From Streptomyces sp. (GTDB taxonomy: Bacteria; Actinomycetota; Actinomycetes; Streptomycetales; Streptomycetaceae): 64,000 nucleotides of DNA. The notes under the pieces are model-generated. The model was not told the DNA's origin. It made no database searches and saw nothing but the letters and a program-made list of their open reading frames with translations. Location: NCBI RefSeq assembly GCF_031181705.1, contig NZ_JAPSKN010000004.1, positions 1 to 64,000 on the forward strand, read 5' to 3'. The position numbers and the translations under genes were made by a program. The stretch's first letter is position 1, and each line of letters starts with the position of its first letter. Below, in pieces: positions 6,406 through 9,399 of the stretch.

Positions 6406-9399
6406 ATGAAGAACGTTCAGACGGCGCTGACCATGCAGGACGCCATCCTCACCCTGCAGAAGTACTGGAGCGACAACGGCTGCATGATCACGCAGCCGTT
6501 GAACACCGAGGTCGGAGCCGGTACGGCGAACCCGGCCACGGCCCTGCGGGTGCTCGGCCCGGAGCCGTGGAGCGTGGCCTACGTGGAGCCCAGCGTGCGG
6601 CCGGACGACTCGCGCTACGGCGAGAACCCCAACCGGCTGCAGACCCACACCCAGTTCCAGGTGATCCTCAAGCCCGACCCGGGCAACCCGCAGGAGCTGT
6701 ACCTCGGCAGCCTCCGGGCCCTCGGCGTCGACCTCAACGCGCACGACGTGCGGTTCGTCGAGGACAACTGGGCCTCCCCCGCGCTCGGCGCCTGGGGGCT
6801 GGGCTGGGAGGTCTGGCTGGACGGCATGGAGATCACCCAGTTCACCTACTTCCAGCAGGTCGGCGGCGTCGCCCTGGACCCGGTGTCGGTGGAGATCACC
6901 TACGGCCTCGAACGCATCCTGATGAACCTCCAGGGCGTGTCCCACTTCAAGGACATCGCCTACGCGCCGGGCATCACCTACGGCGAGGTGTTCGGTCAGA
7001 ACGAGTACGAGATGAGCCGGTACTACCTCGACGACGCCGACCTCGACACCAACCACCGGCTGTTCGACGCCTACGCGGCCGAGGCCCGCCGGCTGCTCGA
7101 CCTGGAGCTGCCGGTACCGGCGTACACGTACGTGCTCAAGTGCAGCCACACCTTCAACGTGCTCGACGCGCGCGGCGCGATCAGCACCACCGAGCGGGCC
7201 AAGGCGTTCGCGCTGATGCGCGGCCTGACGCACGAGTCGGCCAAGCTCTGGGAGCGGCGGCGGGCGGCGCTGGAGCATCCGCTCGGGGTCGCGCCCGCGC
7301 CCGCCCCGGCCGTACGGGCCCCGCTGCCCAAGGTGCCCGGCGTCGAGACGCTGCTGTTCGAGATCGGCGTGGAGGAGCTGCCCTACGCCGACGTCGTCGC
7401 CACCACCGAGGCGGTGCGCGAGTCGGTCACCGCGAAGCTCGCCGAGACACGGCTCGGGCACGGGGCGATCACGGTGATGGCCACGCCGCGCCGGATCGTG
7501 ATCACCGTCGACGGTGTGCAGCCGCGCGAGCGGGACACCGTGCGGACCGTGCGCGGCCCCAAGGTCGCCGCCGCCTTCAAGGACGGCGCCCCGACGCCCG
7601 CGCTGCTCGGCTTCGCCCGCAGCCAGGGCGCCGAACCGTCCGACGTGCGGATCATCGAGGTCAAGGGTGTCGAGTACGTGTCGCTCACCCGGCACGAGTC
7701 GGGGCGGCCGGCCGTCGAGGTGCTCAGCGACCTGCTGGCCGAGGTGGTGTCCGGGCTGCGCGCCGGGCGGAACATGCGGTGGAGCGACCCGGGCCTGTCC
7801 TTCTCGCGTCCGGTGCGCTGGCTGCTGGCGCTGCTGGGCCGTACTCCGCTGCCCGTGGTGGTCTCCTCGCTCTCCTCGGGCGACACCACGCGGGTGCAGC
7901 GGCAGGCGCCCTACCCGGAGGTCCGGGTGACCTCCGCCGAGGGCTATCCGCACTTCCTGCACATGCACGGCATCCTGCTCGACCGGGAGGCCCGCCGCGG
8001 GGCGGTGGTGCGCGGGGCCCTGGAGGCGGCGGCCGAGGTGGGCGGACGCATCGACGTGGAGGACCAGGCCGGGCTGATCGACGAGATCACCGACATCCTG
8101 GAGTTCCCGTACGCCGTGCGCGGGTCGTTCGACGAGCGCTACCTCGAACTGCCCGCGAGCGTCCTGACCACCGTCATGCGCAAGCACCAGCGCTATCTGC
8201 CCGTGCTGGACGGCGACCGGCTCATGCCGTACTTCGTCACCTTCGCCAACGCCCTGTGCGACGACGACGTGGTGCGGGCGGGCAACGAGGCGGTGCTGCG
8301 GGCGCGGTACGAGGACGCCGCGTTCTTCTGGCGGGCGGATCTGAAGGTGGCGCCGGAGGAGTTCCGCCGCCGGCTGGACAAGCTGACCTTCGAGGACCGG
8401 CTCGGCACGGTCGCCGACCGCGCCGGGCGGCTCGGCTCGCTCGCCCTTGACCTGGCCGGACGCGCCGGGCTGCCGGAGGAGACCGTGCAGGTGGTGCGGC
8501 GGGCCGGGGCGCTGGCCAAGTTCGACCTGGCCTCCCAGATGGTGATCGAGTTCTCCGGTCTCGCCGGGGTGATGGCCGAGGAGTACGCCCGCCGGGCCGG
8601 CGAGTCCCCCGAGGTCGCCCGGGCCCTGGCCGAGATGGAGCTGCCGCGCTCCGCCGGAGGCGCCCTGCCCGCCGGGGACGCGGGTGCCGTGCTGTCGCTC
8701 GCCGACCGGTTCGACCTGGTGACGGGCATGTTCGTCATCGGGGCGGCGCCGACCGGGAGTTCGGACCCGTACGGGGTGCGGCGGGCCGCGATCGGGCTGC
8801 TCAACGTGTTGCGCAGCGTCCCGGCCGTGGCGGGGATCCGGGTGGGTGACGGGCTGCGCGCCGCTGCCGTGCGGTACGCGGCGCAGGGCGTGGCGGTGCC
8901 CGCCGACCGGGTCGCCGAGGCCGCCGAGCTGATCACCCGGCGGTATGAGCAGCAGCTCACGGACGCCGGGCACGAGCACCGGCTGGTGCAGGCCGTGCTG
9001 GTGTGGGCCGACCGGCCCGCGCACGGGGACCGGACGCTCGCCACGCTGGAGCGGCATGTCGGCAGCGAGGCGTTCGAGGCGCTCGCCGCCGCGTTCCAGC
9101 GGGTGGTGCGGATCCTCCCCGAGGACGGTGTCGACGGGGCCGATCCGTCCCTGCTGACCGCGCCCGCCGAGCTGCGCCTGGCCGAGAGCGTGCGGACCGT
9201 GCGTCAGGCCCTGGAGGGCCGTGAGGACGATCTCGGCGCGCTGATCGAGGTCTCCGCCCCGCTGGTCGAGGCGATCGGCATGTTCTTCGACGAGGTGCTG
9301 GTGATGGATCCCGACCCGGCCCTGCGGGCGGCGCGGCTGGCGCTCCTGACGGAGGTGGCGGGGCTCGCGCGGACGACGCTGGACTGGGGAGCGCTGTAG
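6406..9399 (+). CDS. glyQS: Fused alpha-beta glycyl-tRNA synthetase (GlyQS type)
   Basis: 997 residues. Residues 1-292 are the class II alpha subunit: [17 protein letters not shown], the ATP/glycine site [10 protein letters not shown] near 70-80, [21 protein letters not shown] and YGLERI. A Pro/Ala linker (~293-313) joins it to a full beta subunit starting [16 protein letters not shown] near 316, with [18 protein letters not shown] (HD-like) and [13 protein letters not shown] segments and an intact C-terminus. It charges tRNA-Gly with glycine. Single-chain alpha-beta fusions are known in chlamydiae; Streptomyces normally uses the unrelated eukaryote-like GlyRS. Start codon uncertain: 6361 and 6433 are alternatives and none has a good ribosome-binding site. 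No T-box fits in the 102-bp leader. Confidence 0.93.

Follow-up and report, generated by a model that had tools for sequence, protein, structure and literature searches.

The DNA analysed here is a stretch of 64,000 nt from a Streptomyces genome (the window), in which a gene for a glycyl-tRNA synthetase (GlyRS) of the fused alpha-beta type stands between pepP and an RsbW-like anti-sigma gene (Table 1). Its frame is open from the ATG at 6406 to the stop at 9399, and the encoded protein exceeds the curated cut-off of the NCBIfam model for fused glycine--tRNA ligases, NF011499, over its full length (residues 6-997, profile positions 3-996 of 998). Both Pfam models are complete, the NCBIfam beta-subunit model TIGR00211 is matched from position 1 to 683 of 684 over residues 315-996, and the closest sequences of solved structure, 7lu4 and 7xjy, are likewise single chains over the whole length. 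An earlier sequence-only reading had placed an intact, fused GlyRS of the non-housekeeping type at exactly this position, which the profile matches bear out. A TTG at 6346, which would add 20 aa to the N-terminus, was rejected as a start, as was a conserved leader reading frame, since relatives do not keep the frame spacing upstream of 6406.

The catalytic alpha domain retains the glycine-site residues that have been named for the Aquifex alpha subunit (PMC4938167): numbered as in A. aeolicus, with the FTYFQQ motif as anchor for the offset, seven of eight positions are identical (W115, G124, T140, Y141, F142, Q143, T158), and F13 is replaced by Tyr, which is also found in the fused 7xjy sequence. 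With a GC content of 0.728 and a GC3 of 0.963 the gene resembles its neighbours in composition. The window holds a true, functional-looking, acquired accessory GlyRS gene; the enzyme itself is ordinary, its company is unusual.

Table 1. Features of the fused GlyRS locus, in positions of the window.
Feature	Position	Strand	Basis
Fused alpha-beta glycyl-tRNA synthetase gene, 997 aa	6406..9399	+	NF011499, 1372.8 bits (cut-off 1244); Pfam; solved-structure matches
Alpha (catalytic) part, residues 10-286	6433..7263	+	PF02091, 1-277/278; glycine-site residues
Beta part, residues 316-865 (NCBIfam beta-subunit model reaches residue 996)	7351..9000	+	PF02092, 1-535/536; TIGR00211
Conserved promoter-like/leader block, GCAGGTCAGCG ... 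TGAGATCATG ... ACCTTGCCGGGCCGA ... CGGGGAA	6331..6405	+	Locus-A alignment; shuffle test
pepP (aminopeptidase P), left flank of insertion site	4840..6303	+	Domain match; locus comparison
RsbW-like HATPase anti-sigma gene, right flank of insertion site	9459..9923	-	Domain match; locus comparison

Insertion site, distribution and phylogeny

Sixteen of 392 Streptomyces genomes carry the fused gene, nine of them (the window's own genome included) at the pepP-rsbW locus (locus A) and seven whose 1.5-kb flanks contain neither pepP nor rsbW; among 26 named Streptomyces loci, a sample that shares some genomes with the former, 20 lie at pepP-rsbW and six elsewhere. An rsbW match was obtained in 59 of 61 genomes, and 30 rsbW loci were read, of which three have the fused gene beside rsbW, while the stretches of the 27 others are free of it. 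The arrangement is not decidable in 12 of the 30, where pepP lies outside the stretch; in all 15 non-carriers with both genes readable, pepP adjoins rsbW without the fused gene. The gap at these empty sites measures at most 290 nt in 12 cases; in L177, L181 and L194 it is filled by 0.7-1.3 kb of different DNA, and it may be a recurrent insertion spot. The proposal that the gene had been inserted between pepP and the RsbW-like gene is thus upheld by every readable empty site, and a gene found in 16 of 392 genomes, nine of them at this locus, lacks the presence in most Streptomyces that would have marked it as ancestral.

One copy (L151, NZ_CP109164.1) is carried by a linear plasmid of 700 kb in Streptomyces; two transposase genes, one of them of the ISAs1 family, lie at a distance of 4-7 kb from it. 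In a tree of 62 rows (quick method, SH-aLRT support, two outgroups, frame-shifted row L087 dropped) seven locus-A copies form one clade (100), nested in Streptomyces copies at other loci (16 rows, 100), and the copies of genomes G275, G011 and G005 constitute together with Streptacidiphilus a separate second group (99). The cluster-linked copies of this distant branch, described below, are 58-59% identical to the window protein. On this evidence the fused gene was acquired horizontally, and its insertion at locus A is specific to one clade; the transfer is deduced from tree topology, scattered occurrence and empty sites, and not from composition.

The fused-GlyRS loci inspected with a codon-position gene caller showed no neighbour in common. 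In S. panaciradicis (L090) two genes of the same strand, for an ArsP_1 permease and a DUF1980 protein, precede the fused gene, and TetR genes occur near some copies outside Streptomyces. The word GTTTCACGTGAAAC, which we take to be the parS word, has seven exact copies in the window (9427-9440, 27170, 33779, 36460, 54105, 62752 and 62807), the first of them between the GlyRS and rsbW genes, and ten copies with up to one mismatch against none expected; these repeated copies make a position of the window close to the replication origin probable. The small Streptomyces RNA Scr3920 was located at 50466-50591 on the reverse strand (RF02828, 120.3 bits).

The resident dimeric GlyRS

The genome of the window (G000; 5.80 Mb in 247 contigs, 81.5% complete) was searched with TIGR00389 for the dimeric alpha2 enzyme, which was found split across the ends of contigs C46 and C3. 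The two ends overlap by exactly 127 nt, and joined through the overlap they give a single uninterrupted frame of 505 codons, or about 460 when counted from the likely start. Both GlyRS types are present in this genome, and a second copy stands beside the housekeeping synthetase, as it does for self-resistance synthetases. That the window gene is additional to a housekeeping alpha2 enzyme, as first suspected, is hereby established by the whole-genome search, so it is not the sole housekeeping GlyRS.

Coexistence of the two types was also recorded in other carriers. In 43 of 44 rows, derived from 45 of 96 loci and including two row pairs of identical coordinates that are probably the same genomes, the dimeric enzyme scored above its cut-off; the exception is Nakamurella lactea, for which no genome completeness is given and no dimeric match reached the cut-off. 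Across a sample of the whole class, 52 of 394 genomes had the fused gene above its cut-off; G514, with a fragment that ends at a contig border, and two further matches, weak and unrelated in position, came in addition. The dimeric search of 52 fused-GlyRS genomes of this class (own genome omitted, G514 included, E up to 1e-30) gave a match in 30, of which 29 were above the cut-off and one (G480) consisted of two pieces on two contigs. The remaining 22, all in groups f18 (g35, g47) and f33 and three of them single-contig genomes (G466, G513, G644), yielded no dimeric match at that threshold. Because the fused type is the only GlyRS found in these 22 of 52 genomes and in N. lactea, it seems able to support all translation of a cell, and the same genomes argue for glycylation of tRNA-Gly by the window protein.

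Lineages in which no alpha2 enzyme was detected might be taken as the end point of a replacement in progress, with the fused enzyme taking over as main GlyRS from an alpha2 gene that is no longer required. Retention of the dimeric gene in every Streptomyces carrier tested (a part of all carriers) and in 43 of the 44 rows overall, together with the open alpha2 frame in the window's genome, makes such a replacement improbable in the extreme.

tRNA-Gly genes and the discriminator base

Of 61 tRNA matches in the window's genome 55 were read, the six others being 84-85 nt long and so not glycine-like. Among them are five tRNA-Gly genes (one TCC, one CCC, three GCC) and a further, aberrant TCC copy, and each of the six has T73; in the single-contig carrier G009, five tRNA-Gly of the same kinds, again all T73, were met among the 30 of 68 matches read. 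A divergent discriminator is absent from the tRNA-Gly read in both genomes (G000, 81.5% complete, 55 of 61; G009, 30 of 68), and a matching A73 tRNA-Gly was rejected, every tRNA-Gly read being T73. Bacterial alpha2 GlyRS is itself listed with U73 tRNA-Gly in a table of PMC3990555. The suggestion that the fused enzyme might need a matching tRNA of its own is not supported: U73 is the discriminator of all tRNA-Gly read, so that a special tRNA is not required.

The aberrant tRNA-Gly(UCC)-like gene, which ARAGORN misses, is located at 13133-13204 on the reverse strand of contig C225 (L054:134-205, reverse strand), and has a D-loop without the GG pair, the T-loop TGCGATT, a weak T-stem and T73. Each of 61 Streptomyces genomes searched has a match of 86-100%, and the fused GlyRS is missing from 56 of them; the best 30 copies (L204-L233) comprise seven sequences with at most four differences, and six genomes have two or three copies in tandem. 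FemX is used in Streptomyces walls. By its features the aberrant tRNA seems suited to donate glycine for purposes other than translation, of the kind described in Staphylococcus (PMC9976931). As a partner of the fused GlyRS it was rejected; it is independent of the fused gene, because it is present in all 61 genomes, including the 56 non-carriers.

This bears on the idea that the fused GlyRS supplies Gly-tRNA for non-ribosomal use, in a cell-wall bridge or a peptide natural product. Such a conserved tRNA does exist in Streptomyces, and pathways that use aminoacyl-tRNA are known (PMC12945691), but 56 of the 61 genomes with the tRNA (match of at least 86%) do without the enzyme, which is evidently not needed for it. 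No gene consuming Gly-tRNA was recognised by eye in the window, and in several genomes the fused enzyme seems to serve all translation, so that we regard a non-ribosomal role as improbable.

Selective constraint and upstream region

Values of dN/dS for the fused GlyRS were 0.06-0.14 in six within-clade pairs, compared to 0.08-0.26 for pepP, from which the gene is judged to be under purifying selection; none of the 16 genus copies contains an internal stop. Two named copies (L087, L095) are interrupted, yet neighbouring genes are interrupted as well, which points to the assemblies as the source. The patchy distribution and the plasmid copy would suit a neutral passenger heading for decay, but such a fate appears very improbable for a gene with these dN/dS values and uninterrupted frames, which is held at one locus across 20 named genomes.

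The leader block upstream of the gene is well conserved in six aligned locus-A rows. At other loci its local alignment score was above all 200 shuffles in five of eight copies, and not in L086, L090 and L068; because the block is kept at those five loci, it seems that the fused gene often brings its control region along when it moves.

A different account of the gene is that of a general spare or conditional isozyme, which without any inhibitor would provide extra GlyRS capacity in a growth phase or under stress, for example in zinc shortage. The resident dimeric enzyme has a zinc-ribbon motif of two CxxC pairs in its N-terminal half, whereas the fused protein, with three scattered cysteines and no CxxC, lacks this motif, as a zinc-sparing paralogue would. 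A zinc motif has been reported in one group of mycobacterial GlyRS (PMC12208437), a second GlyRS helps yeast under stress (PMC9437257), and the S. panaciradicis copy behind the permease and DUF1980 genes speaks for the same account. The upstream regions speak against it: in other genera they resemble, by eye, short ordinary promoters, and no Rfam regulator reached its gathering score near the fused gene, for which reason control by a T-box or another RNA was rejected. Control by zinc through Zur was rejected as well, since in up to 400 nt upstream of 81 copies no good box was found with the consensus that we take to be the Zur word, the best match agreeing at 10 of 14 positions in two Kutzneria. 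Taken with the zinc motif, a spare isozyme deserves to be weighed but is in our judgement unlikely.

Radical-SAM peptide clusters and alternative synthetases

No biosynthetic cluster was recognised in the window, where the genes between 16 and 64 kb were read by eye and not by domain search, and the radical-SAM gene of the clusters described below was not found in its genome, 81.5% complete. A location in a biosynthetic cluster, as expected of a self-resistance synthetase, was seen for the fused copies of G275 and G011 and not for the window copy. In G275 the fused GlyRS is surrounded by genes for TfuA, YcaO, a P450, two PhyH proteins, an aldo/keto reductase and two radical-SAM proteins; the cluster also includes a 116-residue protein, a large SARP regulator, an exporter, and condensation, carrier and AMP-ligase genes. 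Its YcaO has its best NCBIfam match with McrA-glycine thioamidation proteins and its exporter is most like the NHLM type, both below the cut-off of the respective model. Most of these genes also surround the fused GlyRS of G011, with transposases in between, but the stretches read there showed no TfuA, YcaO, AMP-ligase or large SARP gene.

A radical-SAM/SPASM gene of this family was detected in 22 of 392 Streptomyces genomes. At 18 of the 22 loci (L251, L252, L254-L269) an AspRS gene adjoins the gene of the 116-residue protein, two radical-SAM genes and one for a weakly cupin-like protein. The AspRS of L251, the one that was profile-scanned, is of the archaeal type (TIGR00458, 380 bits, cut-off 368.4), those of the other loci match it at 79-97%, and a bacterial AspRS is present in addition in all 18 genomes. 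Two further genomes (G275 and G011; L168/L234/L235 and L170/L236/L237) carry the fused GlyRS in the cluster, and neither synthetase lies near the radical-SAM gene in the 16-20 kb read in G005 and G073; the fused GlyRS of G005 is about 249 kb from the cluster, and the G073 genome has none. Clusters of this kind thus come with a synthetase of alternative structure 20 times out of 22, which suits target replacement; for the window's own gene this bears only indirectly.

Co-occurrence of the fused GlyRS and the radical-SAM gene gave a p of 0.009 with the two query genomes included, and was not significant without them (2 of 14 against 18 of 376, p 0.16), so a statistical link between the fused GlyRS and this family was rejected. 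It could be imagined that the fused GlyRS circulates in Streptomyces to confer resistance, by target replacement, to a family of radical-SAM peptide products, that every such cluster carries the structurally alternative type of the synthetase it poisons (the fused GlyRS in G275 and G011, the archaeal-type AspRS in the 18 others), and that the window copy is a domesticated relative; in this full form the proposal strikes us as decidedly doubtful.

Discussion

As one chain with alpha preceding beta, the window protein is like the known fused glycine--tRNA ligases (NF011499/PRK14908; 7lu4, and 7xjy, which we take to be the rice enzyme), but it differs from those systems in being a second GlyRS beside a complete alpha2 enzyme. 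The heterotetrameric glyQ/glyS enzyme (7eiv/7yse, presumably of E. coli), which is usually the only GlyRS of a cell, belongs to the same alpha and beta families and is made of two separate chains instead of one. Among second synthetases, yeast GRS2 is a paralogue of the same type as the first GlyRS. Like the window gene it is kept beside that first enzyme, and it is active under stress (PMC9437257). Anabaena ThrRS T2 is also a second synthetase for one amino acid, but is controlled by Zur (PMC4787780), whereas no Zur-like box was found for the window gene. Extra copies linked to self-resistance, such as the AlaRS AcmD and the IleRS SbzA (PMC12945691), share with it the second synthetase for the same amino acid and, in its distant homologues, the location in a biosynthetic cluster; they differ in that the window copy lies outside any recognised cluster and represents an unrelated structural type, not a diverged copy.

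Actinobacteria are named in PMC4427996 among the phyla or classes whose members may have one or the other GlyRS form, and no mention of both forms within one genome was seen there. In our literature search, most subscription papers lying outside its reach, there was no description of dual alpha2/fused GlyRS in Streptomyces, none of the radical-SAM/synthetase clusters, and no natural GlyRS-specific inhibitor.

The simplest account of the data is an isozyme that would charge the same tRNAs with an active site of a different class, and a conditional or resistance role is, by inference, the best reading of it. More specifically, the gene would encode a second GlyRS, fused alpha-beta in type, that works, came by horizontal transfer and is of benefit by bypassing a disabled alpha2 enzyme, a reading which we consider reasonably probable without being confident of it. 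The fused GlyRS would charge the ordinary U73 tRNA-Gly pool; its active site is of another structural class than that of the resident enzyme, the two types binding glycine in unlike ways (PMC4938167), and because of this it would work when the alpha2 enzyme is disabled. A natural inhibitor or another condition may do the disabling, upon which the fused enzyme would keep making Gly-tRNA, and this step is the least certain. We know of no inhibitor of this kind. Counting against the bypass are the lack of a cluster recognised by eye in the window, the failure to find the radical-SAM gene in its genome (81.5% complete), the distance between the cluster-linked branch and the window protein, the two related clusters with no fused GlyRS beside them (G005, G073), and a co-occurrence that loses significance without the query genomes. 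Resistant extra synthetase copies in biosynthetic clusters are an established pattern (PMC12945691), and the peptide cluster of the distant branch together with the 18 AspRS loci may lend indirect support to the bypass.

Two unrelated GlyRS types in one cell provide a natural system in which to ask for what reason a genome retains a synthetase or exchanges it for another, and whether the two enzymes share one tRNA pool. Should the inhibitor reading be true, the gene would point to natural GlyRS inhibitors and to mining of the radical-SAM cluster family guided by its synthetases.
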